DNA of 48,694 bases, from assembly GCA_021732415.1 (NCBI GenBank), contig JAKFVC010000063.1, positions 1 through 48,694 of the forward strand, in the 5' to 3' direction. Shown in pieces: positions 656 through 48,300 of this stretch. The notes under the pieces were generated by a model. That model ran no database searches. It was given only the letters and a program-made list of their open reading frames with translations, and was not told the origin of the DNA. Source of the stretch: Planctomycetaceae bacterium. Its GTDB lineage: Bacteria > Planctomycetota > Planctomycetia > Planctomycetales > Planctomycetaceae. The position numbers and the translations under genes were made by a program. Position 1 is the stretch's first letter. Every line of letters starts with the position of its first letter.

Positions 656-1048
656 ATGAGCAACACCACCAGCAAGAAATCACGATTCCACATCGAACGC
701 CTCGAAGACCGTATTGCCCCCAGCGTGTACGCCTGGGGTGGCGATTCGTGCTGCGATAACGGCGGTAGCAACCATGGCGGCAGTAACCACGGTGGCAGTA
801 ACCACGGTGGCAGCAACCATGGCGGCAGCAATAAGTGTGGCGGCAGTGACCATGGTGGCAGCCACAAGTCTGGCGGCAGCAACCACGGCGGCAGCAACAA
901 GTGCGGTGGCAGTGATAAGAAGGGCGGCAGTGTTAAGTGTGGTGGTAGCGACAAGAAGGGTGGTAGCAACAAGTGCGGTGGCAGCGATAAGAAGGGTGGC
1001 AGCCACAAGGTCGCCTGTGCTCCTCCCCCCAAGACCAAGTGCAAATAG
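656..1048 (+). CDS. LEDR-motif, Gly-Gly-Ser repeat Cys/His-rich protein
   Basis: This 130-residue protein has a basic N-terminus followed by IERLEDRIAPS, a variant of the LEDR/LEPR-XLL N-terminal motif seen on exported planctomycete proteins. The remainder is about fifteen tandem units of five or six residues beginning with GGS, such as GGSNH, GGSNKC and GGSDKK, then a CAPPPKTKCK-like tail. Eight cysteines, many histidines and many lysines are present, so metal binding, cross-linking or side-chain modification is possible. The ATG at 656 is chosen because the LEDR motif should lie near the N-terminus; an in-frame ATG at 578 would overlap the promoter. It is monocistronic, with a strong terminator at 1125. 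The function is not known. Its neighbours at 1251-4234 make it a candidate precursor or cargo for processing and export. The 15-18 base DNA repeats are prone to slippage. Confidence 0.75.
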   Translation: MSNTTSKKSRFHIERLEDRIAPSVYAWGGDSCCDNGGSNHGGSNHGGSNHGGSNHGGSNKCGGSDHGGSHKSGGSNHGGSNKCGGSDKKGGSVKCGGSDKKGGSNKCGGSDKKGGSHKVACAPPPKTKCK

Positions 1049-1124
1049 TCGGTCGGCGTGGTTCCCTAAGTTCTTAGTCCGCAATGTGATTGCCGGTATT
1101 AAGAATGGAATCATCTGAAGAAAT

Positions 1125-1166
1125 GGCAGCCCAGCGACCCTCGCGTCCGGGCTGCCTTTTTCTTTT
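1125..1166 (+). terminator. rho-independent terminator after the GGS-repeat gene
   Basis: GGCAGCCC at 1125-1132 pairs perfectly with GGGCTGCC at 1149-1156 across a 16-base loop. TTTTTCTTTT follows directly at 1157-1166. It separates the small gene from the next genes on the same strand. Confidence 0.9.
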
Positions 1167-1250
1167 ACTTCATGAGCTATGTTTACGATGCGTGCGTAGC
1201 GGTTGATCCAAACGTGCGTTTCCTTCACACACAATTGGTCCGAGGTCAAC

Positions 1251-1673
1251 ATGTCCGCTGCAGCAAAATCCGAGTGTCCGCACTGCGTCTCCGGCCGTGA
1301 AACGTTTTGGTACATGGCCCATAAGTATCTATACGACGTCGATCTCGCGCGTACGCTGGTGCGTGATGGGCGGGAAGAAGTGGAACTCGACGACGAAAGT
1401 GTGCAGCATTCCGTCGACACGAGTGTGATCCACGCCGGGCACCTGCCGCACGTGAATACGAAATACCCGGGCATCATTGCCCACATCACCTACCGCACGG
1501 AAACGGGTGAGCTGGTGCGCGGACACGTGCTGATCGACGGCCACCACCGAGCGGCCCGCTGTCTACAACTGCAGATTCCGTTCTTCGTCTATCTGCTGAC
1601 GGAGGAAGAGAGCGAAACGGTGTTGCTGAAAAGTCCTATGAAACCCGAGCTGGCATCGACCACCTCATCCTAG
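1251..1673 (+). CDS. ParB/sulfiredoxin-like small protein
   Basis: This 140-residue soluble protein has a central segment, VLIDGHHRAARCLQLQIP, that resembles the GHR / GERR box of the ParB/Srx fold (ParB N-terminal domain and sulfiredoxin-like phosphotransferases). The N-terminus carries a CPHC pair (ECPHCVSGRE). The start at 1251 (MSAAAK) is preferred over an upstream ATG at 1203 because GAGG lies about six bases before it. It sits 59 bases upstream of the protease-transporter gene on the same strand, so co-transcription is likely. A nucleotide-binding or modifying role in peptide maturation is only an inference. A DNA-binding role seems less likely, since no helix-turn-helix is evident. Confidence 0.6.
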   Translation: MSAAAKSECPHCVSGRETFWYMAHKYLYDVDLARTLVRDGREEVELDDESVQHSVDTSVIHAGHLPHVNTKYPGIIAHITYRTETGELVRGHVLIDGHHRAARCLQLQIPFFVYLLTEEESETVLLKSPMKPELASTTSS

Positions 1674-1732
1674 TCGCGGACCTCCCCGGCATATTTCCGG
1701 CCCCTGACGCTCGGTGCGAGCGAGATTCCCCT

Positions 1733-4234
1733 ATGGCGACCGCTGTTGCAGAACCGGTGCCCGCGTCGGCGGCAGCGCCGAAGAGGCGACCGCTCCCTGG
1801 CCGGCGCGACGATCTGGTCGTGCGTCCGGTCGCCGGGAATCAGTACGTTATTAAAGATCCGGTCACCGAAGCCTATTTTCAAATCGGTGAGCAGGAATGG
1901 TTTCTGCTGTCGCAGCTGGACGCGACCGCGACCTCCTCCTCCGTGCTGAATGCCTTCGAGGCCAAATTTGGTGAAGAGTTGTCGTCGGAAGATCTCAACG
2001 ACTTCATCGAGATGGTATCGCAGCGCCATCTGTTAAAGGACAAAGCAGGCACCCGACCGCGCAGCAAGAGTTATGTCGACTCAGAAGATGAGAACTGGAA
2101 TGACGCATCGGCCGGCAGCGGCAAGAAGTCCAGGCAGAGTATCCTCTACTGGCGCTACAATTTGTTCGATCCCGACCGCCTCTTCAATCGGGTTGAACCC
2201 TTACTCCGCTGGGTGTGGACTCTCGAATTCTTCGTAGTCTCGTGTATTGCGATCACGGCGGCAGGCGCGGAACTGTGGGCGCATCGCTTGTCGTTTCTGG
2301 CGGCATTCCCCCAAGCGATGCGCTGGGAGACATTTGCGTTCGTCTGGTTCACGTTGATCGTGGCGACAATCTGCCATGAATTCGCCCACGGCCTGACCTG
2401 CAAGCATCATGGCGGCGAGGTCCACGAGGTGGGCTTCCTGATGATGTTTTTCACGCCTTGCCTCTATTGCAACGTGTCCGATGCCTGGCTGATTCCCAGC
2501 AAGTGGCACCGCTTGTGGGTGACCCTGGCCGGAGCCTGGTGCGATTTGTGTATCTGGGCCCTGGCGACGTTTGTCTGGCGGCTGACGGTGATGGACTCCT
2601 TCGTTAACTACCTGGCGTCGGTTGTGCTGTCGGTCTGTGGCGCCCGCGTGTTTATGAATTTCAATCCACTATTAAAACTCGACGGCTACTACCTGCTGAG
2701 TGACTGGCTGGAGATCCCGAATCTGCGTGGTCGCAGCTGGGAGCGTTGGCTGGGGTGGCTGCGCTGCGTCCTATGGGGTGCACCGCGACCTCCTCCGGCT
2801 CCGCGTGACTTTGCCGTCACATTGTATGGCATGATCAGCTGGACGTTTTCGCTGATGTTCCTGATCTTCGTGTTCGTCAATGTGACCCGACTGGCCCAAT
2901 CGCGGGGCGGACTAATAGGTGTCGCAATCGCTCTATTTCTGGCAACTTTCACGATCAAACGTCTGTTTCGAGGCTTTAACGGTGGCGAGGTTCGCAAGAT
3001 GATCACTGGACGACCCATTCGGATTGCAATGTGGCTGACGCTGCTGATCGCGGTGCCCCTCGTCATGGGGGCTGTGCGCATTGATGAGCGTGCGGGTGGC
3101 ACCTTTCATGTGCGGACCGGCAAGCGGCTGGAAGTCCGGGCCGAAGTCGCGGGCTTCTTGAAAGAGGTGCAGTTCGATGAAGGCGATAAGGTCTCTTCAG
3201 GAGCCCTGGTCGCTCGCATAGAGGTCCCCGATTTGCAAAGCCTGATTACTCAGAAGGCCGCCGAAGTACGCGAAGTCCAGGCCAATCTGCAGCGTTTGGA
3301 GATCGGATCCCGCCCGGAAGAAGTTCAGGAGCAGCGGGCCAAGGTCGATCGGGCGCGTCAATGGCGCGACCTGGCCGTCAAAGATCTGGAACGTGCCCAG
3401 CAGGGATTAAAAGAAGAATTGGCCCGATTTGATCAGCAGATCACTCTGCATCAGGCCGAGGTCGCGTTTGCCCAGCAGTCGGTCACCATATCGGAGCGGT
3501 TGTATCGAAAGGGAGTTCTCGCGGGCGAGCAATTGCGATCGGAAAAGAAAAAGGTCCAGATGGCGGAAGGCTTGTTGCAGCAGGCTCTCTCTCAGAAGAG
3601 AACGCGCGAAGCGTCGGGGAATCTGCAGTTCGAAGCGGAACTCGCGAAACGCGTGAAGGACCTGGCCGATACCGAAGCCTCCCTGGCCTTGTTGACAGCT
3701 GGTGCCCGTCCCCAGGAGATTGAAGCGGAACGTGCGCGATTGGAGAAGTTTCAAGAAGAGCTCGACTATAATCGCGATCTGCAGTCGAAACAGGTACTGC
3801 GTTCCACGCTGACCGGCTTCGTGACGACTCCGCGGCTGCGGGAGAAGGTGGGTCAGTTTCTGGAAAAAGGAACACTAATCTGTACGATCGAGGATTTGAC
3901 CAGTCTCGAGGCCGAAATCGACATCCCTGAGGACAAGATGGAGGGCGTGCAGGTCGGACAGACAATCAACTTGAAAGCCCGGGCCTTTCCCCTGCAAACA
4001 TTCACCGGCCGCGTCGATCGGATCGCACCCATTGCCACGGCGGCAGCTGAGGGGACCGCGGCCGCCGCCGGTCAGCAAGGCACCGTCACCGTGTATTGTC
4101 GAGTCGACAATCCGGAGTCCCAGCTGCGGTCTGGCATGAGTGGCTACGGGCGCATCTACCGCGGCCAGCAGACCCTGCGAAGCATGGCCGGAATGCAGAT
4201 TCTGCGCTATGTGCGGACTGAGTTCTGGTGGTGA
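1733..4234 (+). CDS. PqqD-like / M50 metalloprotease / HlyD membrane-fusion protein
   Basis: This 833-residue fusion has three parts. Residues about 27-103 resemble a PqqD-like domain, the fold used as a peptide-recognition element in RiPP pathways. Residues about 150-450 form a multi-pass YydH-type site-2 protease core with zinc motif H215-E-F-A-H219 and the distal LDGYY motif at 316-320, whose Asp317 is the third ligand. After a membrane segment near 430-447 comes an HlyD/RND-adaptor region: a biotinyl-lipoyl-like half, a long coiled coil (about 500-670), the second half and a beta-barrel. Such proteins are predicted to sit in the inner membrane, cleave a peptide and link to a TolC channel. 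A TolC-like gene converges from the other side, 21 bases away. All catalytic residues are present. Domain edges are read by eye; the PqqD-like call is the least certain. Confidence 0.85.
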   Translation: MATAVAEPVPASAAAPKRRPLPGRRDDLVVRPVAGNQYVIKDPVTEAYFQIGEQEWFLLSQLDATATSSSVLNAFEAKFGEELSSEDLNDFIEMVSQRHLLKDKAGTRPRSKSYVDSEDENWNDASAGSGKKSRQSILYWRYNLFDPDRLFNRVEPLLRWVWTLEFFVVSCIAITAAGAELWAHRLSFLAAFPQAMRWETFAFVWFTLIVATICHEFAHGLTCKHHGGEVHEVGFLMMFFTPCLYCNVSDAWLIPSKWHRLWVTLAGAWCDLCIWALATFVWRLTVMDSFVNYLASVVLSVCGARVFMNFNPLLKLDGYYLLSDWLEIPNLRGRSWERWLGWLRCVLWGAPRPPPAPRDFAVTLYGMISWTFSLMFLIFVFVNVTRLAQSRGGLIGVAIALFLATFTIKRLFRGFNGGEVRKMITGRPIRIAMWLTLLIAVPLVMGAVRIDERAGGTFHVRTGKRLEVRAEVAGFLKEVQFDEGDKVSSGALVARIEVPDLQSLITQKAAEVREVQANLQRLEIGSRPEEVQEQRAKVDRARQWRDLAVKDLERAQQGLKEELARFDQQITLHQAEVAFAQQSVTISERLYRKGVLAGEQLRSEKKKVQMAEGLLQQALSQKRTREASGNLQFEAELAKRVKDLADTEASLALLTAGARPQEIEAERARLEKFQEELDYNRDLQSKQVLRSTLTGFVTTPRLREKVGQFLEKGTLICTIEDLTSLEAEIDIPEDKMEGVQVGQTINLKARAFPLQTFTGRVDRIAPIATAAAEGTAAAAGQQGTVTVYCRVDNPESQLRSGMSGYGRIYRGQQTLRSMAGMQILRYVRTEFWW

Positions 4235-4255
4235 CCGACACGGCGTTCGAACGGG

Positions 4256-6181
4256 CTAGTAGCCATACCGTCCCGGAAGCGGCCGCGGGGTCGGCACGGC
4301 GGGTGGCCGCGCCGTGCCCGGTGGGGCGACTGGTGGAGCACCGGTGCCCGCGTCGAGATTCCAGATCTCCGGATCGATCACCCGCTCGCTTTCGGGCAGC
4401 CAGCGGCTCTTCCGGGCCTGTGTGATCGGGTCGCCTTCCAACTGAATGTCATAGTTAGCCAGCAACGTTCCCTGAACTTCCTGCAGGGTCGCCAGCAACG
4501 TGTTGTATTGCGCCAGCAACTGGGCCCGCGACGTGATCGAATCGGCCTGCGAACGCAACGACAACAGGTAGTCATTGAGTGCCGCCAGTAACCAGTCCCC
4601 ACCGTCGCTGCTGGGGGGCGGATCTTCGTAGCGCCCCCGGGACCCTTCCATCCAGATCGCCGATTCTTCCACACGCGTCTTGGCCTCGTCGTACTGATAG
4701 CGAACCGATTCGAGCTGCCGCAGGACGTCACTCAGGCGGTGGGCCGTGGCATGCATTTTCTGACGCAGAATGATTCGCTCACGGGTCAGTTCCAGTTCGG
4801 CCGCGTGCAGATTCGCACGGGCGGCTCGGCGGCCGATCGGCACTGAGAACGACGCCCCCGCGGTCCAGTCGGTGTACTTGTTCTGAAACATCATATCCAG
4901 CGAATCACCCACGTTGTCGCTGAGACCATTGCTCCGATACAGCCCCTGCAGATCGAACTGCGGCTTGAAGCCATTCTCCGCGACCAGCAGGTTCATTTCA
5001 CCGATCCGAATCCCCAGCCGTTGACGCATCAGTTCCGGCCGGTTGTCGGCCGCGGTATGGATGATTTGCACGGGGTCAAAATTCAGCGGTGATTCCGAAG
5101 CGCGATCCGTGGGGTCAATCGTCAGTCCGTCGTTGGGAGCCAGCCCCAGCAGATTCCGCAGGTGCAATTCCTGGTTCAGGGCATTCGAACGCGCTTCAAT
5201 GGCAGCTTGCCGAAATGCCGCTTGCTGCGTCCGTGCCTTGGCCACTTCCGCCCGGATCGTCCGCTCTTCCTCGAGTCGCTCCTGCTGAATGCGTACAATG
5301 CCGTCGAGCAGTGGCAACAGATCTTCAATCGCCTGCAATGCGGCCCGCGCGGCCTGCAATGACCAGTAAGCTTCCTCGACGCTGCGGACCAGGGACAAGG
5401 TCGCCTGCTTCACATCCCAGATCGACTGGTCGGCCTGCAACTGCGCGATCCGGATAGGAGCGCGATTCACGTCGATCCCGGCGCCGCGCAGCAACGGCTG
5501 CTTGATGTACAGCTCTGTGTTCGACGCGTACTTGGGGTTGTAGAGCCCGCTGGTCCCGTTGGGGAAAAAGAGATATCCCGGGTTCGGATTGTAGGCGACC
5601 GACGTCGTCGCCCCCGTGGCCCATGGTTTGACCAACGCGGCCGAGAACGTGGCATCGTCACGGCGAGTATTGGCGGGAATGCCAGGGCCGAACACGGTGG
5701 CCGGAGGTTGATTGAATCGATCCGCGCTGTAATTCAAATTCACGCTGGCATCGAACGCCGCCACCGCCGCATCCCGGGTCGCCTGGAAGATGGCGGGGTC
5801 ATAGTTCGTGACCCCCGTCGACGTGACTTGGTCCCCCTCCAGCGTCCGAATGACCTGGGAATTCCGCAGGGCAATATTCACCGCCTCACGCAGAGTCAGG
5901 GGCCAGAACTCGTTCGTCTCGGGAGTGACGACGATTTCGGGAAGCGGGATACTTGGGAGATTTGTGGGAAGTACGGCCTCCGCGTAATGACGGTTCAACA
6001 CCGATAGTTCCGGCGTCAGACTGACCACCGATTCCGCGGTGACCGCCGATTGCGTGGGGCGTAGCGGGGCCCACTGACAACCAGCCACCAGCAATCCGAC
6101 GGCCAGGATCAGCGTTTCACGTGTGCTCGGTATTCGACTTAAACAGGAACGAATCAAGCGCACCCTCTCCGCAATCGACAA
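4256..6181 (-). CDS. TolC/OprM-family outer-membrane efflux lipoprotein
   Basis: This 641-residue protein has a basic N-terminus, a hydrophobic stretch and a lipobox LVAGC with the lipidated Cys at residue 35. Two outer-membrane efflux repeats follow, with long amphipathic helices (for example around EAYWSLQAARAALQAI) and family-like strand segments such as ATGATTSVAYNPN. The C-terminal tail is proline-rich. It should form the outer-membrane channel for an HlyD-type adaptor. The gene is convergent with the M50-HlyD fusion, with stops 21 bases apart, so the two belong together by position but need separate promoters. The start at 6181 leaves a normal lipoprotein signal. No transporter ATPase is adjacent, so the energising partner is unknown. 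Confidence 0.9.
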   Translation of the reverse strand: MSIAERVRLIRSCLSRIPSTRETLILAVGLLVAGCQWAPLRPTQSAVTAESVVSLTPELSVLNRHYAEAVLPTNLPSIPLPEIVVTPETNEFWPLTLREAVNIALRNSQVIRTLEGDQVTSTGVTNYDPAIFQATRDAAVAAFDASVNLNYSADRFNQPPATVFGPGIPANTRRDDATFSAALVKPWATGATTSVAYNPNPGYLFFPNGTSGLYNPKYASNTELYIKQPLLRGAGIDVNRAPIRIAQLQADQSIWDVKQATLSLVRSVEEAYWSLQAARAALQAIEDLLPLLDGIVRIQQERLEEERTIRAEVAKARTQQAAFRQAAIEARSNALNQELHLRNLLGLAPNDGLTIDPTDRASESPLNFDPVQIIHTAADNRPELMRQRLGIRIGEMNLLVAENGFKPQFDLQGLYRSNGLSDNVGDSLDMMFQNKYTDWTAGASFSVPIGRRAARANLHAAELELTRERIILRQKMHATAHRLSDVLRQLESVRYQYDEAKTRVEESAIWMEGSRGRYEDPPPSSDGGDWLLAALNDYLLSLRSQADSITSRAQLLAQYNTLLATLQEVQGTLLANYDIQLEGDPITQARKSRWLPESERVIDPEIWNLDAGTGAPPVAPPGTARPPAVPTPRPLPGRYGY

Positions 6182-6397
6182 ATTATCCGGTTAATTATCG
6201 ACTTACGAATTTTCCGACCTGAAAGAAATTAAGGGTTAGGATGACATTAACGATTAAGGTGTTTGAAAATAAGAAGCGATGGAGATCTGGGCGATAAACG
6301 TCGAGGTTGTGACAATACGGACACCACTGCAAATCGGCAGAATTTGCCGAAAGTGGGACAGGGTGGCACTGGTTTTGAACGCAATAAAATGAAAATC
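6182..6397. other. intergenic DNA upstream of the TolC-like gene
   Basis: This AT-richer stretch should hold the minus-strand promoter of the TolC-like gene, but I could not pick a convincing pair of hexamers. Towards 6362 it contains the first GTGGCACTG word of the repeat family that follows. Confidence 0.4.
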
Positions 6398-6801: not shown

Positions 6802-7131
6802 TCTGGTCGGCTTTGAATCGGCTGCGAATCTGCCGGACTGTTCGAGGGCGCACATCCCTTAGAGATTGCGTGTGAGCTGCGTGGGTCGCTGGAATTTGCC
6901 TCTCGGGAATCTTCTTGAGCGGCCCCAACCCCTGGAGTTGTCCACGTTTCGTGATTTCGCTGGCTGCGGCTGCGTGCTGTAGAACTGAGGCGGCAGCGTG
7001 GGATTTCTGCGGGTTGTTCGCGGGACCATGCTGTCGACTCTTTCGGAACGGGGTGCAGCATGTTGCTTGAAGTCGTGAATCTGGCTGATGTGGCGCGTGG
7101 GATGGGACCTCAAGTTGCTCGGTCGGGGAAG
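6802..7131. repeat. right copy of the large inverted repeat (partner 1-340)
   Basis: It spans about 260 bases upstream of the ATPase start and about the first 24 codons of the gene. It is the reverse complement of 1-340 with scattered substitutions. Conservation of the untranslated part is as high as that of the coding part. Confidence 0.85.
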
Positions 7132-8619
7132 GGTGGGGGGCCGTCGCTTCAGGTGAGGCAGCCTGCTCCGCAGGTCGAGCAGACTTCTGGTGTCGCGACG
7201 TCTGGTGTCGCGAAGACAGTGCGGGATGGTGGGAATGTCCGTGAGGAAGCGGTGAGCGACCGGCGGGACGGCGGTGCGCGGTTGGATCGGCGGGCGGAGT
7301 TGGTCAAGTTGGCTCAGCCGTTGCTGGATCAGGGCTTGCCGGAATCTGAGGTGGATGCGGCTCTGCAGGAGTTTGTGCAGCACAAGGGGTGGGGATACCT
7401 GTCGCCGGTGACTCTGGAGGGGATTGTCGAATCGGCGTTGGAGGCGTTGGTGGACGCGGAAATGGAGGAGGATGTTGCTCAGCGGAGGGTGAGCCTGGTG
7501 CCGGAGGTGGATGAGTTGCAGGAGGTTTCGCTGGCGGACGTCACTCCGGAGCCGGTGCGGTGGTTGTGGCCGGGGAAGATTCCGCTCAATAAGGTGACGG
7601 TGATTTATGGTGAGGCGGGGATTGGCAAGACCTCGCTGGGGCTGGATCTGGCGGCTCGAGTGTCGGCTGGGATTAGCTGGCCGGATGGGTCTGGGGCTCC
7701 GGAGGCGGGACGCGTGCTGATTGTGAATGGCGAGGATCCTGTGGGGGACTCGATCTGCCCGCGGCTGACGAGTAGCGGGGCTAACCTTAAGAACATCGCG
7801 GTCATTGCCGGCATGCAGCCAAATGGCACGCGCTCTGGCTGTTCGATCAATCAGCCGCTGGGCGTTAGCCCCCGGTTCGGGCAACAATCGACTCCAATTT
7901 CCGAAGAACCGGACGCTAACGCGTACCGGCTGATTGGCCAAGACGCAAAGCGAGTGCCATCTGGGATGCGGGGGTTTGATTTGGGGCGGGATCTGCCGGT
8001 GTTGCGGTCGCGGATTGAAACGTTGGGGAATGTGCGGCTGGTGATCATCGATCCGTTGGAAGCGTACCTCGGGAAGGTGGGTTCGAATCGGGGGAAGCTG
8101 CGGGAGTTGGTGGCCTCGTTGTCGAAACTGGCGGCTGAGTGTGGTGTGGCGATCGTGGTGATTTCGGCGGCCTCCAAGTGTGATCTGCCGGTTAAGCATG
8201 TGTGGCGGGTGGACTGCGAGGTGCTCGATGCGACAGCTCGGTGCTGGGTGCCTGTGAGGCACAACTGCGGTGCTTTGCCCGATGGCCTGGCCTTCCGGAT
8301 CAACGCCGACGGAGTGGTCTGGTCGCAGGGACGTGAGGCTCCGACCGAGTCTCGGGTGCGCGGGACCTCAGCGCGGCATGCGCGCTGCCGGCAACTGCAG
8401 GAGCAGGCCGCCTGGTTGCGGGACTATCTGGCGGCGGAGCCTCGTCCGGCCAAAGAGGTGCTCGCGGCCGCTGGAGCCGCCGGCTGGTCGACCGGGCAGA
8501 TCAAACGTGCAAAGTGGGAACTGGGGATACGCTGTTATAAAGAATCGGCGGCGAAGGGGCGGTGGTTCTGGGAAGCGTTGAAGGGTGAAGAAGTCAAAGA
8601 GTTCAAAGAAGTCGCGTAG
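7060..8619 (+). CDS. RepA-like AAA ATPase (AAA_25 type) with repeat-derived insertion
   Basis: This 519-residue P-loop ATPase belongs to the RepA/RecA-like family often found in planctomycete genomic islands. Walker A is GEAGIGKTS at 184-192. GRVLIVNGEDP follows as the next core strand, and Walker B is VIIDP with Asp331. The first 150 residues are Pro/Gln-rich and then helical. The last 90 (from about ARHARCRQLQ) look like a winged-helix DNA-binding end, with conserved WLRDYL and GRWFWEAL. Residues about 255-300 are encoded by an in-frame palindromic element (7823-7960) that breaks the ATPase core between the two Walker motifs, so activity is doubtful. The start at 7060 is shared with the paralogue at the left edge. 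A role in plasmid, phage or island replication is inferred from the family only. Confidence 0.75.
   Translation: MLLEVVNLADVARGMGPQVARSGKGGGPSLQVRQPAPQVEQTSGVATSGVAKTVRDGGNVREEAVSDRRDGGARLDRRAELVKLAQPLLDQGLPESEVDAALQEFVQHKGWGYLSPVTLEGIVESALEALVDAEMEEDVAQRRVSLVPEVDELQEVSLADVTPEPVRWLWPGKIPLNKVTVIYGEAGIGKTSLGLDLAARVSAGISWPDGSGAPEAGRVLIVNGEDPVGDSICPRLTSSGANLKNIAVIAGMQPNGTRSGCSINQPLGVSPRFGQQSTPISEEPDANAYRLIGQDAKRVPSGMRGFDLGRDLPVLRSRIETLGNVRLVIIDPLEAYLGKVGSNRGKLRELVASLSKLAAECGVAIVVISAASKCDLPVKHVWRVDCEVLDATARCWVPVRHNCGALPDGLAFRINADGVVWSQGREAPTESRVRGTSARHARCRQLQEQAAWLRDYLAAEPRPAKEVLAAAGAAGWSTGQIKRAKWELGIRCYKESAAKGRWFWEALKGEEVKEFKEVA
7823..7960. repeat. 138-bp palindromic element inserted in frame in the ATPase gene
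   Basis: The ends are ATGGCACGCGCT and AGCGAGTGCCAT, near-perfect terminal inverted repeats. Inside, ATCAGCCGCTGGGCGTTAGC pairs with GCTAACGCGTACCGGCTGAT, and CCGGTTC pairs with GAACCGG. The length is 46 codons exactly, so the reading frame stays open. The encoded peptide (Ser, Pro, Asn and Arg-rich) interrupts a region that reads like normal family sequence on both sides. Confidence 0.8.
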
Positions 8620-35714: not shown

Positions 35715-38700
35715 TCACATGGGATGTTTCGGTGGCTTCGGAGCTTTCTTCGTTACCGTCACATTCTGTGTGACCGTATTACTGTGCAATCCCGTTTGAT
35801 CTGTCACCTGGACCTGGAAGTTCCGGTTGGCGATTTTTAGCCCCGCGCCTTTCGTCGAGAACGTCATGCCATCCAGCATGGCTTGAACGGTCGCGTTGGT
35901 CGCTCCCGGCTTCAGCGTGATGGTGATTACCAGGCGTCCTGAGACGATGGTGTCGACCCGCGTGCCCATGCTACCCAGACCGGGTAAGTTCACGATATCG
36001 GGGTTCTTCTTCGCCGCTCCCAACGGCAGGCTGATCACAATACTGGCGAGAGTTGCATTGCCGTCCGCGTCGGTCACCATGAGCGTCGGGACGACATTCA
36101 CGGGGGTCTTCAAGTTGCCATAGAAGGTCGAAACCGGACCGGGAGTCGCGAGGACCGGGGCCGTCGCGGCGGGCCCCACGGTGACGCTCACGCTTTGAGT
36201 GGCTGACAATGGCGAGGTCCCGCCATCCGTATCGGTCACCTGCAACGTGATCGTCTGCCCTGCCACTGCGACCAGCGCAGCGGCGTTGGCGACAGACATC
36301 TGCCCCGCAGCATTGATCGCGAAGATGGCGGAGCCGTTCGGGAGACTGAAGGTCTTCGTGCTGTTGGGAGCGGACATGTCTGGATCGTTCGCTGTCACGG
36401 TGCCGATCACCGTTCCCGCCCCCGCACTGGCAGCGACATTGAACGCCTGACCGCTGGGGATGACCGGGGCCTCGTTGACGTCCGTGACATTGATCGTCAT
36501 CGACGCGGAACTCGATTTGCTCGGCGAGCCACTGTCGGTCACTTGGACGATTAGTGTAAAGGTTGTCGTACCTTCGAAATTCAACACGGCACCGGCGGCC
36601 ACCTTGATGCTGCCCGTGGCCGGATCGATCGTGAAGTTGTTGCCGGTATTGCCGCTCAGGATGCTGTAGGTCAATGTGCTCGAGCCAGTCGCCTGGACTA
36701 TCCCCACGACTGTGTGCGCCGCCGAGTTCTCGGGCACATTGAACGACTGATTGGCAATCAACGGGGGTAGGTTGGAGACAGTCGTCTGCGTATCGGCGGT
36801 CAATGGTGCCAGTTCGTCATGGCCGACATTGTCATGCGCCACGGAATAGAAGCGGTACGTCTTTCCTGGTTGTCCCGTATACGTGGCGGAGGTGGCGGCA
36901 GTCTCGAATTGCCAGATGGTGAAGTCGCCGCCGTCGATACTCACATAGATGTCGTAGTGGGCAATTCCTGAGCCTCCCGTGTCATCGGAGCCTGACCAGT
37001 TGACGGTGAAGCTGTTGGGAGATTGCGCGGACAGGGCGGTCACGGAACTCGTGGGCGAACCAGCATCGATCGTGTTCAGGGCCACGGGTGTCTGCACAGG
37101 GGTATTCAGGTCGAATATGATTCCGGTCTGTTCTGTAATCTGAGTTCCACTGGCCAAGCCAGCCTTGGGCTGCACGGTAAACGTGAAGTAGCCCTGGCCA
37201 TCGTGTGCGGGATTGTCGACCGGCAGGAATCCGTCGTTGACTCCATCCGGCGGCAAGTTCGTCTGCGGATCGAGCGACTCCAACTTGATGCTTACGACGC
37301 CGGTAACCGGATTCTCATCCAGGGTCACCGGGACTAGCAGGTTAATCCCGTGAGGACGCAGGTCGAGGGTCGTCTGATAGTGGAACAGGCCCTCGGGAAT
37401 CTGGAAGTTTAACTGCCCGAAGCCGAAGCCGGTGAACTGCAGTGTTGCCGGATCGAGATCGGAATCGAGGGTGAACGTCGTGCTCACGATCTGCGCCGCA
37501 GCCGTGGCGAGGTTGGGATCGTTTTCGAAATCGACCCGATAGGACATCAACTGCGACTGGATAAACTTCTGAGGTCCGAACCCGGCTGGGCCCGTGAAAT
37601 CATTCGGATCGAGGGCGCCTTTAGAGATGGTGATGGTACCGCCACCAGGCTTATTCACAGGCGGATCCATCGGAGAAGGAGGGGGCTGGCCGATTTCCAG
37701 GGTGGGGTTAGGTTCGCCGGGCGGATCCACGGGCAACATGTCGACGTCTGCCGGGGGCGCCGTGACGACTCCAATCAAGACTTCTTTGATTCCAGGAGTC
37801 GTCGGTTCGTAGGCGATCGCGGGGGGATTTCGCTCAGCGGGCGGTGGAGGCGGTGAATCCTTGACCGGCTCGACAGGACCGCACGACTGCACCATGATGT
37901 CGAATACTTGAATCACTTTGGCGATCGATGCGAGATAACGTTCCTTCAGCTCATCATAAAATTGGAACCTTAACAGTGATTGTTCGACTTCACTCGCTAC
38001 AGACTCAATGGTCTTAAGTTCCGCTTCAAACGTTATCGTCAGGCCTCTTAATTCCACGCCAAACTGCGTTGGGAGCTGCGGCGAATTGAGAATTGGGCTG
38101 CCCGGCAGCTCGGCCAAACTCTTCAAGCGCCCCTCTTCTCGTGCAATCGACTTCACAAGTTCTCCAATCAGCACATCCACCTTTCGACCTGCGGTCATAT
38201 CGTCGAGCGCGTGTAGCAACTCTTTCATACTTGACCGTGTCGTCGCAAATCGATCCCTCAGCACGACCTGATCGGTGCTGTCGGGGTATTTTGCCGCCGT
38301 GTTTTGATACTGTTCATCCAGTGAAGAGACCACTTGTTTGATAAGCGGAATGCTATCCTCAATTTTATACTGTGACTGCAGGACTGTTTCGTAATAGGAT
38401 TGCAAGGATTTGAGTAGCTGGTTGGACTCCAGTATCGTAATCAAAAGTCCAAAGGGCAACACGCCCTGAGCCGGCGTGGGTGCGGGGCAATTGATCTGCT
38501 CCATGATCTCGTCAAGCGGCAGCGGCTGCAGATCGCGCGGGTCCGTTTGCGAAAAGCCGAGGACATACGAGGAAGGCGATTCGTCTGCAGCACTAGAACC
38601 CGGGCCAGTGGCATCCGTAATGGCGACTGCCGCCAGCGTCACATTGGTGCCGCTCACCGATTGTGCCGCGGCCAGTTGGATCGCCAACGGCGCGGATGGC

Positions 38701-41700
38701 TGGTACCCCACGGCCCTCGCGGTGACCGAATAGGATCCAGCCGGCAAACCGGAAACTGAGTACGATCCGTTACTGTCTGTCGTCGTCGAACCCCAGACGA
38801 GTCCCTGGCTGTCAGTAATCCGAATCGCCGCGTATTTTAGTGGACCGATATTGCTCGAAACCGTGCCACTCACGGTGGTCGTGCTGGTGCCCAGGGTCGG
38901 ATTCGAAATGTTGGAACCAGCACCAATCGTGACATTCTGAATCAAGGTGTCGTTGTATCCGGGAAACTCCACCAGCAAGCGGTATGTCCCGGCGGCCAGT
39001 CCAGCCATCTGATAGTTTCCAGTCGCATCCGTAATTGACGCGCCGACAACTTCCAGCGAACCGGAGCGGATCAGTTGCACACTCGCGCCGGCCAGCGGCA
39101 GCACGGTACTGGTGTTGCGAACTGTGCCCTGCAAGGTCAGGCCAGTGGTTAACGCGAAAGTCAGCGGCGCTGGACCATTGGCGGTCACGGTCACAGTCTG
39201 AATTTGAGGGACGAATGTGCCAGCCACCGCGTAGACCGAATAGCTGCCCGGGATCAAGTTGTCGGACACAAAACTCCCATCGCTGCCCGTGGAGAGCAGA
39301 TCCACGAAGACCGGCCCCAGGGTAGGGTCGTTGAACACAACTGACACCGTGGCAGCAGACACGGGTTGCCCGGTGGCCTGGTTTTTTACAGTTCCCTGCA
39401 GCTGCCGATTCCCCGCCTGGAAATTCTTCCCCGTCAGGATGGCACCACCAGAAACCGCCACACCCGTGATCGACGGGAAACTCATCCCCAAAGCGTTGGC
39501 CTGCAATTGATAAGTACCACCTACGAGCAAATCAAACGTGTAGCTGCCCGCCGCATCGGTCTCCATAGAGAGGATGAAAGCACCATCGTGCAAGAGACGG
39601 ACCGTCACGCCCTCCAGCGGTGTAGTTCCATCCGCCGCATAGACGACTCCGGAGACCATGCCCGCCAGCGTTGTCGAGAGATTCGCCGTCGCCTGAACTT
39701 GGTTCGTGGTCAAATTGACCGTGGTTTTCGACACGCCAGGACTGCCGGGGTCGCCCAGAACAATCTGATACGATCCGGCATCCAATCCCTCGATCACATA
39801 ATTGCCATTGGCATCCGTTAACGCCATGGTAGAAAGGCCGTCCGCACCTTCCGCCCGGACGAGGACCTTAAAGATGGGAGCACCATTCACACTATTAGTG
39901 ATCTTACCCGTGACAGTTCCCAGAGGTGCGGTCGTCAAATTCTTCGTGACCGTTCCTCCCACGCTCACGGTAACCGTAGAGACCAATGACATGAAACCGG
40001 CACCGCTGGTCGTCAGGTCATAATTTCCCGCCGGCAGACTCGCGAGTGAAAAATGACCTGTGTCGTCGGTCGCGACAGCAAATGTCGCCGTGGAACCAGT
40101 CAACGTCACAACGACCCCTGCCGCAACCTGGCCACCGGCCACCTGAGTGATCTGACCGACGACGGTGCCCGCCCGCGTGAGACTGAAATTCTTGCTCGTC
40201 AAACTGGCGGCAGTCGCGACGTTCAAACTGTGAATCCGGCCTGACACCAGACTAGGTAAGGTGGCGGTCAGTTCATAAATCCCGGCAGATAACCCGTCGA
40301 TGGTGTACTGTCCCGCAGCATCGGTCCGTGCGGAGTTGGAGCTGCCATCAGCAGCGATCGCGATCACCACTGCACCGACGATTGGACCACTTGGACCACT
40401 GACCGTACCACTAATCACGGCGGCAGACTGGAGCGTGAAATTGACATGCCCCGTTTCAGCTCCCAGGGCGACATCCACGTCCGCATCGGTCAACTGCGTC
40501 AGCGTGCCGCCACCCGTGTGTACGGAATAGACCCCGGCCGGCAGCGAGTCGATCTGGTAATAGCCGTTCGCATCCGTCCGACCCATGTAGAGCTTGCCGT
40601 CAGCGCCAAACGCCGAAACCCCCTCGTCGGGTAGCGGCGCTCCCTGCGACGTGATCACTCTCCCGGAAATGCTGCCGGAGGGGGTAATGACGAATTGCAG
40701 GTTGCTGATCCCGGAAGCGCCGACATCGAGCGTCGCGGGCGAAGCAATGTATCCCTGGACTTCGATCTCATAATGACCTGCCTCCATGTACGGGATCTGG
40801 AAGGTACCGTCCGTCAACGTGGAGGTCAGGAAGATCACCCCGGTCGACGGATTCCCCACCGTAAACGTGACATTACCAACAGGATGGCCGCTGTCACCCA
40901 GGACGATCTTGCCGGTCAGCGCCGGGCCCTGTTCCAGGGCCTGCTTGGCAATTTCCAACTGAAAGACATCAGCGAGGGAGTAATTCCGTCCCATCGACGT
41001 TGGCATCAGCGTGGCATCGCGAGAGATCGCGAGTGCGAAATCGTCCCAGTTCGGACCAATGTTCGCCGCCAGACGCGTCATGACTCCGTGCCAATCTGCG
41101 TCCGCAATCTCGTCCGGCTGCAGCAGCGGTTCAATCGCGGACCAATTAATCGGAGTTCCCGGATAGCCGCCAATCGTCAGCTGGAACGAGTTGCCCCCGG
41201 GAGTTGCTGCCTGGGCATAGATCGTCAAAGTCCCATGAGCACCTGGCGGCAATATTCCGGCGGGCCCGTCCGGGTTGATGCCGATGAGGTTCAGCGAATT
41301 CGTCGCGCGCGTGAAGTCAGTCGTGAAGCTCAGCGGATCAGAGTTGGAACCGGTCACATTCAAAATCGGTGCCAGGATGTCTGTGTCACCCGCGTTGGCA
41401 TATTCGATGGTAATCGCATACGTACGACCACTGCGCACCTCACTCGGGGATGAGATGCTCGTAGTGAGCGTCCCGGCCTGGCCCGCGATGATGTTAAACC
41501 CGTCAGCCAGTGTCTTCGTGACTCCGGTGTTCACGACCTGGACATCGGCCGCTCCGGTCGCGGCTCCGGTCAGGTCAAATGTCGCAGAGATGGTCCCGGA
41601 ATCGATGTAATACACTTCGAGCGGTTGAATGGTGACCCCGTGGCTGTCCACTAACTGCGGATGCGAATTCGCATTAAACTTCGCACCGTTGAAGGTCAAC

Positions 41701-44700
41701 GTCACCTGACCCTTGTTGCTGCCTTGCAATGGCCCGACACGACTCACCGTAAACGCTGGGGTCGTTGCAGTGATTGAAAATTGCTCGATCGACGGAATGC
41801 TGGCACCATAGACCAGGACGTAATAGATCCCGGCCCGCGTGTTCGACACGCTGACCGACTGATTGGCAGTGCCTAGTTTCGCGCCGCGTTCATCAAACGC
41901 TTCACGCGTCGGCGCAACTCCGTACGAGACATACAGTTCATTCGAATTGCCGCCGGGACCGGTCAATGCCAGGTTCAGATCCGTCCCCGCTGTCGTTGTC
42001 ACCTGATACAGAAGAGCCACACCTGTCGCCGATAATGTTCCTGTCGTCGCACTTCCCAAGATCAATGCCGGTAACGTCATCGCAATCGTCTGGGAGCTGG
42101 CTCCGACGTTGTTCGCTCGCTCACTGCCTTCAAACACCTCGTTCTGAGCATTCGATCGGACCAGGAAGTAGTAATCTCGGGGCGTCACTCCCGGGAGCTT
42201 GAAGCTGCCTGACGCGTTATAGGTTTGACCGGAACTGAGGTTACCGGCATGCGTCACTGACCCCAGCAAAATGGCATCCGCCGTGAAGACGGGGCTCGAT
42301 GAGAGGTACACCGCGTCTTGCCACGTACCGGTCGCGTCACCCGTGCCGACGCTTTGCACCGTCCAACTGACAGTGACGCTTTGTCCCTGTTGTCCCGCTT
42401 GCGGCCCGCTGACCGCCGTAACAGTGAGGTCCACATCCGAAGTCGCGAATTCCTGAACCTCGATGGCCCCCATGTCGTAGCCGGAACCATTGCCACGTCC
42501 CGCCAGATTCGGATCCTTGAAGCGCGGGTGGCCGTAGAAATCGGTGAGCGGTGCGCCCACATTCGTCCCGGCGTCTTCCGCAGGTGAACCGGGCTTGAGC
42601 TGGTACTGACCGCCCTGACGATTGAAATACTTCGGATCGACCGAGATGTTGCCGTTGCTACCAGTCTGGGATGCCAGGCCGACATAGTTATTGAGTCCCG
42701 AGTTGTAGACGTTCGAGAAACTGAGCGTCAGATTCGTCGGGCCGGTCTGGACTATTCCGTTCCCCAAGCTGTTGGTGATCAAGACATTGGTCAACTTCGC
42801 GGTGGGCGAATCGAGTAACACTCCGGTCGTGTTTCCGTCAATCGTGTCGTTGAACGCGATCAGATTCGCCCCTGCTTGCGCCTGGACACCCACGCCACTG
42901 GTGTTGTTAACGATCAGGCTGTTGGTCAGCGTCAAGGTGGATCCCGCCAGCGCCATGATTCCGACATGACCCGAATTTCGAATGATGCTGTTGCTGACGG
43001 TCAGGCTGGACCCGGCCACGTTCACCATGCCAAACGTCCCGTCAGCCGCATCGTGACCGTATCGCAACTCCACATGATCCAGCACACTGTTCGTACTCGT
43101 GGCCTTGAATGACCAACTGCGCCAGTCGCCATTGTGTGGTACGGAGTTCGTGCCGTTGTTATTCGAGTCGCCCCCGACGCTATCGTCGTCGAAGGACGTG
43201 CAGATGACCGGATCAGCCTCCGTTCCCAGGGCTTTCAACGTGCCATTGACGATGAAGGCCTCGCGTCGGTTGGTCACTTTGATGATCTGGCCAGCACCCA
43301 GTGTGAGCGTCACTCCGACAGGAATCGTGACTCCTGCCCCGTTACCATCCATGACATAGGTGATGTCCGGATTGTTCCAGCTCGTATTGGCTGGCAGAGA
43401 ACCGCTTAGCACCACAACTCCGTTTACCGGACTATTGGAGAACGTGTTGCCGCCACCGCTCGTGATGTTGCTGGCCACATCCGCGGCGATCGCCAGCCAT
43501 GTATTGCGATCAAAATTCGTGTTACTGAGCGTCATCGTACCGGCATTCATCCAGATACCGGCATGCGGGGCATCTCGAACCACGCTGTTGGTGAGAGTGA
43601 TCGAGGCGCCATTCACCATGATCGCGGCGTTATCGTCGTAGCCGGAATTCCGGACTTCGACATGATCCAGCACGCTGCCGGTACTGGTCGCCGAGAACAC
43701 AATCCCGCCAGAGGCGTCGTTGTTCACATCGGTGGCCCCGTTATTCGTGGTATCATTTCCTGCGGCATCATCGGACAGATTGGCAAAGATCACCGGCTTG
43801 GCTGCGGTCCCATTCACAATCAGGGTGCCATTCACAAACAGTTCCGTCCTGAACCCCGCCTTAACAATTTGCCCGGCACCGATCGTGAGCGTCTTGCCCT
43901 GAGGCACAGTGACATCGTCCTGCAAGGCGTACACGATATCGGGATTGTTCCAGGTCGCGTTGGCAGTCAGGCTTCCGCCCCGCATCAACAGTCCATTGAT
44001 GGCATTATTCGAGAATGTATTGCCGTTGATCGTCAGGATCGATGACAGAGTCGCATTGATGGCTTCAAACGTACTGTTCTGAAACACATTACCGGTGATC
44101 ACTGCCGTACTGGAGTTGAGACTCATGCCGGCACTCACCGAATTGCGGATCACACTATTGGTCACCGTGATCGGGGCGCTGTTTACCACAATTGCGGCGC
44201 CCACATCGAAGCCAGAATTCCGGACCTCGACATGATCCAGCACGCTGCCCGTACTGGTCGCGGAGAACACAATCCCGCCAGAGGCATCGTTGCTGGCATT
44301 GTTGGCCGTCCCGTTGTTGTTGGTATCGCCACCCGCCGTGTCGTCGGCTGGATTGGCAAAGATGACCGGGGCGGCAGTCGTACCGTTGGCGAGCAGCGTT
44401 CCATTCACAAACAGTTCCGTCCGGAACCCGGTCTTAATGATCTGACCGGCCCCCAGAGTCAACGTTTTGCCCTGCGGGACCGTGAGATCATCTGGCAGGA
44501 TATACACAATATCGGGATTGTTCCAAGTGGCATTGCCTGGCAGCGTGCCAGAATCCAGCCACAATCCGTTCCACCCGTTGTTGGTCATCGTGACGCCGCT
44601 GATCACCGGAGCCGAATTCAAGTCCATGCTGATCGCGGCGAAGGCGCTGTTAATATACGAAATATTGGTGAGCGTCGGTGATGCATTTGTGATGCGGACA

Positions 44701-45341: not shown

Positions 45342-48300
45342 TCATGGCCGAAATATCGGCGTCTTAAATGCACCCGACTCATATTCTTTCACAAACGCGT
45401 CCGGTGCATAGTTGAAATTCTCATGCCCTTCAGTTGCGATGATGGTGACATTCGACATCGGCCGCAGGACCTCAGTTCCCCGTAGAATATAGCGCGGAGT
45501 GAGATAGCACTGTTTCAGATCCATCCCCTGCAACGGAGAGAGATCGGTGATTCGACAACCGGTCAATCTGATTGCCTGTAGCGGCATACCTTTGAGTGGA
45601 GCTAAATCGCGAACTAGAGTGTGTCCCATTTCCAGCCACTCCAGTTTCATTCCTTCCAATGGAGAAAGGTCTGAAACTTGAGTGAGATCACAATTCAGGG
45701 ACAATAACGGCATTCCTGTCAGCGGTGAAAGGTCTGAAACTTGGGTGCGATTGCAAATGAGGAGGCGTAACGGTTTCCCCTTCAATGGCGACAGGTCAGA
45801 GACTCCTGTGCCACCACACTTGAGCTCCTTGAGGGGAGCGTCTGCTAGCGGACTTAAGTCAAAGACGCGGGAATTATTGCAATCCAGCCATTCGAGCTTC
45901 ATTCCCTGCAGCGGAGAGAGATCCGCGACGCGACTGTGCGAGCATCCCAAGTGCGTCAATGGCATCCCTTTGAGCGGCGTGAGGTCCGACACCATCGCGC
46001 CTTCAAAGATCAGGCTTTTTAGTGACATGCCTTGCAGCGGCGACAGATCTTGGAAAACATTCACCTCTCGTGAGATGTTGCCAGTCCCTCTGAGTTCCAA
46101 CGTGTCCAGTCCCTTGAACGCTCGAACTGGTGAAATGTCGACGATCTGCAGGGACGACAGTTGAATGCGCGTCACCGTCTCAAACTCGATGGCGTGATTG
46201 ATAAACTTTCCGTCGAACTTGGGATTGAGTTCCTTGAGCTTCGTGGCAACTGCTTCCAGTTGTTTCTCGGCCGGCATGGCAGCAACATCGTTCGTCCATT
46301 TGATGAATTCAGGATCGTCCAGCCGTGTGAGTGGTTTGGCCGGCGGAAACTCGCCGGCGGCAAGTTTCTTCCAGAAGTCCGCGGTCGCCATGTAGGGAAG
46401 TGTGCCAGTGGCGATGGATTGGAGAGTTTTGTGGTTCCGCAAGCCATCCAGAGCGCGGGTGATGGAGCCTGGCGTTAAGCGAACTCTTTCGAGTGGCATT
46501 TGCTGAAGTGGTGTCAAATCGGTAACCAGTGTGCCCGCACAATCCAAGTCAACCAGCGGAGCACCAGTCAGCGGCGTCAAATCACGCACATCCGTATTGC
46601 AGCAGATGAGTCTTCTCAATGGCATCCCCTTCAGCGGAGACAGATCAGACACCTGCGTGAAGTGGAATCCCACGTTGACCAACTGAATTCCCTGTAAGGG
46701 CGATAGATCTGCGACACGTGTCATTTCGAATTCAAGACTTGTCAAAGGCATTCCTTTGAGCGGCAGCAAGTCACTCACTAGCGTATTCATGCAGTTCAGG
46801 GTCTCGAGCGGCATGCCTTGCAGCGGTGACAAGTCTGCGACTTGCGTTCCGGGCATCAAGAGTGTGGTGAGTGGCATACCTTGCAGGGGACGCAGGTTCG
46901 AAATCAATGTAAATGACGCGTCGAGATACTTTAGTGACATCCCTTCCAGAGGTGCCAGGTCCTGGATGTACGTGTTGAAGATGGACAATTCCGTCAGCGG
47001 AAGTTTCGCAATCGGCGACAGATCGACCACAGGCGCATAACTCAAATCCAGAGACGTCAGTGGCAAGCCCTGTAATGATGAGAGGTCTGCGACGCGTGTC
47101 CTGGCAATGTTGAGCCGCTTCAGCGGCAGTTCCTGCAATGCCGTCAAATCGGAAACGGGACAACCTTGCAAATTCAGCGACACCAGGCCCGAGAATGCGC
47201 GAATTGGTGAGATGTCCGTAATTTGCTGCGAGGAGATTTCCACGTCTTTGACCACGCTGCTCGCAATCCTCGGATGCACCTTCAACATGCAGCCGGGATT
47301 GAGTTCTTTCATCTTCTGGTCAAAAGCCACCACCTGTTGTTCGGCCGGGAGCGCTCTGACTTCCTGAACCCATTGATCCAGGGCTCCTGGTGGCAGCGGC
47401 TTTCTGGGCAGAATCACCGGCTGTTTCGTGGGTGGATTAATCGGTAACTGCGCGGCCATCGTCGCGGGCTTCAGAGGAACTAGTCTCACGTTGATGGGAC
47501 GCTGGTTTTCTCCCGTCTTAATTTCAATGCTATTTTCGACATGAGTGACGAAGCCCGCTTTCTCAACCCGGATTTGCTTCTTGCCGGGCACCAGTGAGAC
47601 TGTGACAGCGTCCTTCTTGGAGGGTTCTCTAATCTCGACGGATCCCTTGTCGTTGAAGACCGTGATCACTGCATCCGGCTCATTCACCGTGATCTCTAAT
47701 TGCGTGCCGTCTGGCCCCTGGAGAATGATGATCACTGCCGCCAGCACCAGCGCCGCAGCGGCTCCACAGGCCAGTAGCCCTCGCCGAAAAGTCCAACTTT
47801 TTCCCGTCGATCCCGGCCGTGCGAAGCTTGTGGTAGCCGGTAACACGATGGCCGACTTGCTGAGTGTCACCGTGTCGTTGCCCGCCCTGTCCGTGTCAGT
47901 CTGCCGCCGCTTGAGCGGTGTCGCAGATGGCAGGCGTTCGAGGTCCGCAATCAATTCCGCCATGGACCGATAACGCTCGGAAACCCGCTTGGCCGCCATC
48001 TTCTTGAAAATCGCCTCTAGCATCTCACTGACGTCTGGCCGGCTGGCACGCAGGTCAGGGATGGGTTGTGCCTGATGAGCCAATAGCCGCGACGTGATCG
48101 TGTCCCCTGGGTAAGTTGCGTGACCAGTCAGTAAGTAGTACAGGGTACATCCAAGACTATAAATATCTGCCCGGCCATCGACCGATTTCGTGTCGAGAGC
48201 TTGTTCGGGAGCCATGTAATCGACCGTCCCCATCACCATGCCGGAAGCTGTCAGTTCGGCCAGCGTCGAGACGTCACCATGAAACCGCGCCAGTCCCATG

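Follow-up and report, generated by a model that had tools for sequence, protein, structure and literature searches.

Four neighbouring genes at positions 656–6181 of a 48,694-nucleotide stretch of DNA from Planctomycetaceae bacterium (GenBank assembly GCA_021732415.1, contig JAKFVC010000063.1; the whole stretch is hereafter the window) would form, with a probability that we put at about two in three, a leader-guided maturation and export module resembling those of ribosomally synthesized and post-translationally modified peptides (RiPPs). A single fusion protein, FUS, would bind and cut the leader of a GGS-repeat precursor and pass the core to a TolC-type channel, and a small protein, PBL, would modify the repeats. 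Computationally, the genes are linked across the order, a conserved leader precedes a variable core, and the protease motifs are intact; judged from sequence, leader-guided processing and export is likely, and modification of the Ser/Lys repeats of the core by PBL is plausible. A description of the window made from its letters alone (the sequence-only reading) had named these four neighbours, and all four open reading frames (ORFs) were present where it had placed them, in the ORF list as well as in the sequence: the precursor gene (656–1048, + strand; 130 aa), PBL (1251–1673, +; 140 aa), FUS (1733–4234, +; 833 aa) and, convergent with FUS, the TolC-type outer-membrane channel (4256–6181, −; 641 aa from TTG).

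FUS, PBL and TolC are kept together across the order

The order-wide search covered 170 genomes from 58 genera. FUS of this clade was present in 21 genomes (14 genera), namely 20 genomes that carry PBL and one, G134, that does not; PBL matched in 21 genomes, strongly in 20 of them (E 1.0e-39 or better; 13 genera), all of which have FUS. The remaining genome, G159 (E 0.005, eight internal stops), was dropped as a PBL carrier; a second search there gave E 3e-4 and 25% identity to PBL, without FUS on its 3.5-kb contig. Using tblastn, we observed that FUS adjoins PBL in 19 of the 20 loci fetched besides the window, the 20th (L056) being the weak G159 hit. The co-occurrence across genomes that had been proposed as a check on the sequence-only reading was therefore borne out, with PBL in 20 of the 21 FUS genomes and the repeat protein in 18 of those 20.

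Clustering of ORFs (ATG starts, 80 aa or more) at 20 loci including the window recovered FUS in 20/20, TolC in 17/20 and PBL in 13/20, plus five loci where PBL was shadowed by an overlapping antisense ORF. TolC is convergent with FUS in all 17 TolC loci, with other ORFs intervening in L045 and L046; among the three loci without it, L044 stops at the contig edge, the sequence of L043 runs on for 2.1 kb, and L050 shows no TolC. Beyond these three families and the antisense shadow, no ORF family occurred in more than 4 of the 20 loci, and thus no ATPase is co-conserved, in agreement with the earlier remark that the gene group lacks an ABC ATPase. Pairwise distances of PBL and FUS correlate over 19 loci (Mantel r 0.84; 0/2000 permutations as high), a correlation for which shared ancestry alone suffices. 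Across the phylum, a PBL profile search of 392 genomes gave two strong matches, both in the home family; weak matches in G401 (E 6e-4) and G512 (E 0.008) were taken as chance, and no further copies were found in the orders of G349 (5 genomes) and G192 (1 genome).

The genes flanking the module are mostly unlike from locus to locus, and three flanking families recur in 3–4 of the 20 loci, with no further family in three or more, which would suit a chance neighbourhood of unrelated genes. That explanation is effectively refuted by the finding of the same genes together in 13 genera, by the order-wide co-occurrence of FUS and PBL, and by the tree of M50 domains described below.

FUS joins a PqqD/RRE-like domain to an M50 protease and a HlyD adaptor

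FUS begins with a domain like PqqD or the RiPP recognition element (RRE) (about residues 20–103; 1790–2041, +), followed by an M50 intramembrane protease and by a HlyD/EmrA-like adaptor part (3110–4231, +) that ends in an invariant RTEFWW. In the window, FUS matched HlyD (PF16576) at E 1.1e-18 and the minus-strand gene matched OEP/TolC at E 1.8e-33; the best fold match of the C-terminal half of FUS was EmrA (4tko). The Pfam M50 match of the window protein reached E 0.0017 only, under its cut-off. With a limit of E 1, PF02163 (M50) matched all 19 FUS members, the best at 3.1e-6. Both M50 motifs (HExxH and NPxxxxDG) are intact and invariant in all 19 members: the zinc site HEFAH (2375–2389, +; H215, E216, H219) and the second active-site motif NPLLKLDGYY (2663–2692, +; N311, P312, D317, G318).

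In the predicted model of FUS, the N-terminal domain has three strands followed by three helices; since the overall predicted template modelling score (pTM) is 0.47, the arrangement of the domains in the model is unreliable. PF05402 (PqqD) matched 14/19 FUS members at E up to 1 and seven of nine N-terminal pieces, missing L051 and L101, and exceeded its curated cut-off in one relative (L048; 28.7 vs 23.4 bits). The family context therefore supports a PqqD/RRE-like N-terminus, as the sequence-only reading had proposed, although the window protein taken alone matched weakly, under that cut-off. Together with the co-occurrence of the genes, these family-level matches support its interpretation of a PqqD-like/M50/HlyD fusion suited to RiPP-type processing. 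NCBIfam NF041824, which describes the RRE-M50 protease of daptides, matched 19/19 FUS members and, in the window, residues 28–415 with 209 bits (cut-off 300). We rejected this model as a RiPP-specific marker of the FUS clade because other M50 proteins match it too.

Precursors share a leader and differ in their cores

The repeat protein was found in 18 of the 20 PBL genomes, with counterparts in 17 of the 19 besides that of the window: at the locus in 14, and on another contig, by leader pattern search, in four (G076, G113, G119, G057). At the locus it precedes PBL in ten cases; in L042 it is placed between PBL and FUS, and in L041, L048 and L052 it precedes TolC, on the same strand as TolC. 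In four of the 18 (L037, L041, L048, L052) it is a contig-end fragment with the repeat part and no visible leader. The 14 complete precursors have in common the leader [RK]Fx[IFL]xRLE[DE]R[IV][AVT]P; the next residue is S in nine of them, C and G in two each, and T in the remaining one. Downstream comes mostly an aromatic or acidic/Cys stretch, and then repeats such as GGSNK, GSSKK, GGSSRK and SSKK; the precursor of G119 (L163:3776–4492) has an extra acidic PSEDTPSDD repeat block ahead of its GGSSKK repeats. In the window, the leader MSNTTSKKSRFHIERLEDRIAP (656–721, +) is predicted, by analogy with daptides, to be cut after P22, leaving a core (722–1045, +) that opens with an aromatic/acidic/Cys stretch and goes on with repeats (GGS-x-K/H) carrying Lys, His, Asn and Cys; an in-frame ATG at 578 would lengthen the precursor to 156 aa.

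Ser, Lys and Arg (S+K+R) together make up 29–71% of the core in the 14/14 complete PBL-linked precursors and about 38–65% of the four fragments. Cores of proteins with an LE[DEP]R[IV][AVT]P leader range from 37 to 1463 residues and are unlike in composition, the pattern of a common leader with changing cores that is characteristic of RiPPs. The GGS protein had no meaningful match in Pfam or NCBIfam. In a comparison of leader codons (14 rows: 13 complete precursors and the G134 protein, with L051 left out), third positions hold 591 of the 973 pairwise differences, which are not independent events; this excess, too, speaks for more than chance. In the own genome, the strict leader pattern matched once, at the precursor, and the reversed control also once. 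A looser pattern, applied to the six genomes that lacked a precursor at the locus, gave 7 matches vs 3 for the control. Through these matches four genomes yielded a single repeat precursor each, and two (L154, L159) yielded no precursor.

The leader persists at relatives of FUS outside the PBL loci

PqqD-M50 proteins are scattered over the phylum (45/199 genomes at 1e-15; 89/392 by profile at 1e-60). Many are about 740 aa long and, by eye, adjoin a separate HlyD-like gene and a protein that we take to be GAF-like. We searched 23 of their loci, comprising 16 plus 6 mostly high-scoring relatives and the second copy of the own genome, for LExRxxP-type N-termini, and found LE[DEP]R[IV]AP proteins at four. 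In L102, five tandem proteins of 54–74 aa, with LE[EP]RIAP leaders and unlike cores free of Cys, stand directly ahead of the FUS relative; in L101 a 1,491-aa LE[DE]R[IV]AP protein follows it directly, as does in L146 one of over 1,200 aa that runs off the contig; in L107 such a protein lies about 3 kb upstream. The other 19 of the 23 loci had no LE[DEP]R[IV]AP-type protein, and the single match in L103 (LERKLTP) was taken as chance. The second copy (L061, contig C224) is a PqqD-M50 protein beside a HlyD-like gene, and similar sets recur in planctomycetes.

A tree of 39 M50 domains is divided by a branch with 99/99 support, with a linked leader or repeat protein in 19/21 loci on the FUS side vs 0/18 on the other; none of 500 shuffles of the labels was as clustered. 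The tree leaves aside five contig-edge rows (L038, L043, L046, L049, L053) and counts same-locus precursors only, four of them (L037, L041, L048, L052) being the leaderless repeat fragments. Near-copies raise counts of this kind; as independent cases we take the window family, L102, L101/L146 and L107. Since relatives of FUS keep the LExR[IV]AP leader while the cores change, the proposal that the GGS protein is the substrate now has more behind it than gene proximity, and what the sequence-only reading had called an export motif of this protein is better read as a leader peptide.

PBL follows the Ser/Lys repeats

Among the FUS genomes of the order, G134 alone gave no PBL match. Encoded at its locus are a FUS with 46% identity to that of the window, a TolC convergent with it and a LEDRIAPS protein of 89 aa. 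The core of this protein, which is Gly-rich and hydrophobic, contains an APPKDDFS repeat, 4% Cys and 19% S+K+R, and lacks the Ser/Lys repeats. The nine cores found without PBL (G134, five in L102, and L101, L107 and L146) contain 2–19% S+K+R. These cores and the PBL-linked ones point to FUS and TolC going with the leader, and PBL with the Ser/Lys repeats. In the tree, G134 is nested within the PBL loci, a group with 100/99 support, where its neighbours are, with moderate support (84/84, 90/92), the genus of the window and L042; given this position, loss of PBL probably went together with loss of the repeats.

The same cores bear on whether the genes handle metal, with a Cys/His-rich protein as metal buffer beside an efflux adaptor and TolC. 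The window core contains 7% Cys and 7% His, and the HlyD part of FUS also matches the CzcB model in 18/19 members and the CusB model in 4/19. We nevertheless consider a metal-handling module very improbable: the L051 core has 1% of each residue, the L102 cores have no Cys, the G134 core contains Cys yet lacks the repeats, and no pump gene is co-conserved. Cys or His content was accordingly rejected as a defining trait of the core, on the strength of L051.

The predicted fold of PBL

The alignment of 20 PBL sequences revealed an invariant CxxC (C9xxC12; 1275–1286, +), H64/H67 and a DG[HN]HRAARC segment. Within the last, DG[HN]HR (residues 96–100; 1536–1550, +) has D96, G97, H99 and R100 in 20/20 sequences and reads as the GxxR phosphate-binding motif (Box II) that PMC12704722 describes for the ParB-type fold. 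The predicted model (predicted local distance difference test, pLDDT, 88) has a strand at 88–96 and a helix at 98–107, with G97 and R100 at the start of the helix that follows the strand, as in Box II. Upon structural comparison of the model with VIA-align, 23 of the 25 listed rows were named sulfiredoxins, free serine kinases, ParB/Noc/KorB or SbnI, and the other two, 1vk1 and 2hwj, were titled as hypothetical or by locus only. The model thus suggests that PBL is a stand-alone ParB/Srx-fold-like protein. A search of PBL against plasmids gave nothing useful.

According to PMC12704722, nucleotide binding is shared by proteins of the ParB/Srx fold, of which some are enzymes, and many with the ParB fold act as switches; SerK, SbnI and Srx, which are without helix-turn-helix (HTH) and dimerisation domains, bind ATP via the fold. 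PBL resembles SerK, SbnI and sulfiredoxin in being a small stand-alone domain with GxxR at a helix start; it has no detectable sequence similarity to them, and its substrate would be a peptide, which SerK does not accept. From the fold, the core chemistry and G134 we infer that PBL is perhaps a phosphotransferase acting on Ser, that is, a peptide-serine kinase.

PBL could instead be a CTP- or ATP-dependent switch that regulates expression or assembly, like its canonical ParB relatives, and the presence of ParB, Noc and KorB among the fold rows and the many switches of this fold fit such a role. We regard it as rather unlikely, because a protein of 140 aa offers little space for an HTH or dimerisation domain and because PBL follows the chemistry of the core and not merely the operon, as G134 indicates.

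Proposed order of events and observations that weigh against it

In the module that we favour, PBL would act on the Ser/Lys-rich repeats before cleavage, its likeliest role being that of a phosphotransferase on Ser, and the PqqD/RRE-like domain of FUS would bind the conserved leader of the precursor. The M50 domain would then remove the leader, probably just past AP or VP, and the freed core would be handed by the HlyD part of the same FUS chain to TolC and so leave the cell, by a presumed route and source of energy.

Several observations weigh against this scheme. At the 20 loci there is no co-conserved ATPase or ABC, MFS or RND pump, a pump encoded elsewhere being possible. The N-terminal piece of the window FUS alone matched PF05402 at E 0.025 (residues 38–101), and NF041824 fitted 6/6 other planctomycete M50 proteins tested nearly as well (168–198 bits; one of the six, L104, falls on the FUS side in the tree), so that the likeness to daptides is not special to this clade. 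No precursor was found by leader pattern search in the PBL genomes G056 and G047. Within the FUS clade of the tree, L104 lacks an LExR protein, and L050 has its leader protein on another contig and TolC missing from the locus. In L042, a second LEDRVAP protein (L042:8740–9258, +), on the opposite strand beside PBL, has a Ser/Lys-poor core (15%), and the lowest PBL-linked cores (29–31% S+K+R) come close to the 19% of G134. For PBL, sequence searches of PDB, Pfam and NCBIfam gave no meaningful match, and Foldseek on its own did not reach significance (E 0.22), so that the fold rests on VIA-align, where the best Z was 5.2 (a sulfiredoxin; root-mean-square deviation 4.3, 86 aligned) and a Z below 8 may reflect a common arrangement only. 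SerK, according to PMC5120207, phosphorylates free serine and not serine within a peptide.

Large proteins encoded on other contigs, too, can have LExRxxP-type N-termini. In the own genome, [LF]E[DEP]R[IVL]xP[AS] lies near the N-terminus of the long open frames L062, L064, L067, L068 and L069, on contigs other than that of FUS; 5 of the 9 pattern matches are in long open frames, and the reversed control also gave 5 matches. In the window itself, a 3182-aa surface-type protein (35715–45263, −), with nine CarboxypepD_reg stretches and SdrD_B and cadherin domains, has a related motif, LEDRVLLA, near its N-terminus. These proteins would fit a secretion route without chemical modification, in which the LExR leader is a sorting tag of structural surface or matrix proteins, FUS combines a signal peptidase with an adaptor, and PBL is a chaperone or regulator. 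The leader proteins beside L101 and L146 are long for classic RiPPs, and no modifying enzyme is known beside L101 or L102, where the neighbours were listed and not family-searched. This is a serious though unlikely alternative, since PBL accompanies cores with Ser/Lys repeats and is missing where the core is of another kind, and since its fold is one of nucleotide-binding proteins that include enzymes.

Comparison with known systems

The nearest known kind of system is RiPP maturation by an RRE-M50 leader peptidase. In PMC10036551, removal of the daptide leader is ascribed to MpaP, an RRE-dependent intramembrane peptidase, and the leader motif is given as ELExMEAP, with P at −1; by eye this resembles LEDRIAP, both having LE...AP just before the core. 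Like the daptide peptidase (MpaP/DapP), FUS has an N-terminal RRE-like domain fused to an intramembrane M50 protease; unlike it, FUS has a C-terminal HlyD adaptor, adjoins TolC and scores under the NF041824 cut-off. The module does not belong to the daptides: no further gene family is conserved in it, so that the daptide enzyme set (aminotransferase, oxidative decarboxylase/dehydrogenase, methyltransferase) is not among the families recurring in more than 4 of the 20 loci, and the C-terminal Thr of daptides is absent from the complete precursors, whose final residue is K, C, W, Y, H, P, D or G.

The YydH/LiaK epipeptide proteases (NF058609) likewise use an M50 protease in RiPP maturation, as we propose for FUS, which matches their model weakly (36 bits; cut-off 225); to our knowledge they have no RRE or HlyD part. 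The module shares a HlyD adaptor and TolC with NHLP/type I and EmrA-type tripartite exporters and differs from them in the missing co-conserved pump and in the fusion of the adaptor to the RRE-protease.

Among the matches listed, by titles and abstract openings, we found no description of such a system in the open-access literature, and the module would be a peptide-maturation route without an earlier description. If the scheme is correct, leader recognition, intramembrane cleavage and export would be united in one polypeptide, and PBL would bring to RiPP modification a fold that we do not know among its enzymes, giving a testable function to uncharacterised planctomycete proteins and a way into the sorting of proteins with LExR-type N-termini in these bacteria. 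Silaffins, Ser/Lys-rich phosphoproteins of diatoms, have SSKK-type repeats like those of the precursor, albeit in a different kingdom. A further-reaching version, which we hold to be speculative and doubtful, is a new product class in Planctomycetota: a single-chain protein of RRE, intramembrane protease and HlyD parts would mature and export LExR[IV]AP proteins, and a ParB/Srx-fold kinase would phosphorylate Ser in silaffin-like SSKK/GGSxK repeats, yielding a secreted polyampholyte of adhesive, matrix or mineral-binding nature. By extension, the LExRxxP N-termini of giant planctomycete surface proteins would likewise serve as leaders of this kind, recognised by RRE-M50 proteases.

Other features of the window

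Between the precursor gene and PBL lies a hairpin followed by a T-run (1125–1166, +), which is terminator-like. The fold of 1115–1170 has −25.7 kcal/mol (z −5.1; 0/200 shuffles as low); this window fold has a shuffle control, and the precursor/terminator folds at other loci are without one. A consensus scan, which gave 3 terminator-like sites vs 5.0 expected, did not list the hairpin; it also gave two promoter-like sites vs 1.9 expected, both at 6241–6390, outside the module. A 312-nt inverted repeat, 93% complementary, flanks the module on both sides (arms at 4–315 and 6821–7132) and may be a dispersed genomic repeat or the end of a mobile element. One arm is overlapped by an AAA_25 ATPase gene (7060–8619, +), whose product is presumably RepA-like. 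At the far end of the window, the gene at 45342–48692 (−) encodes a protein kinase with leucine-rich repeats.

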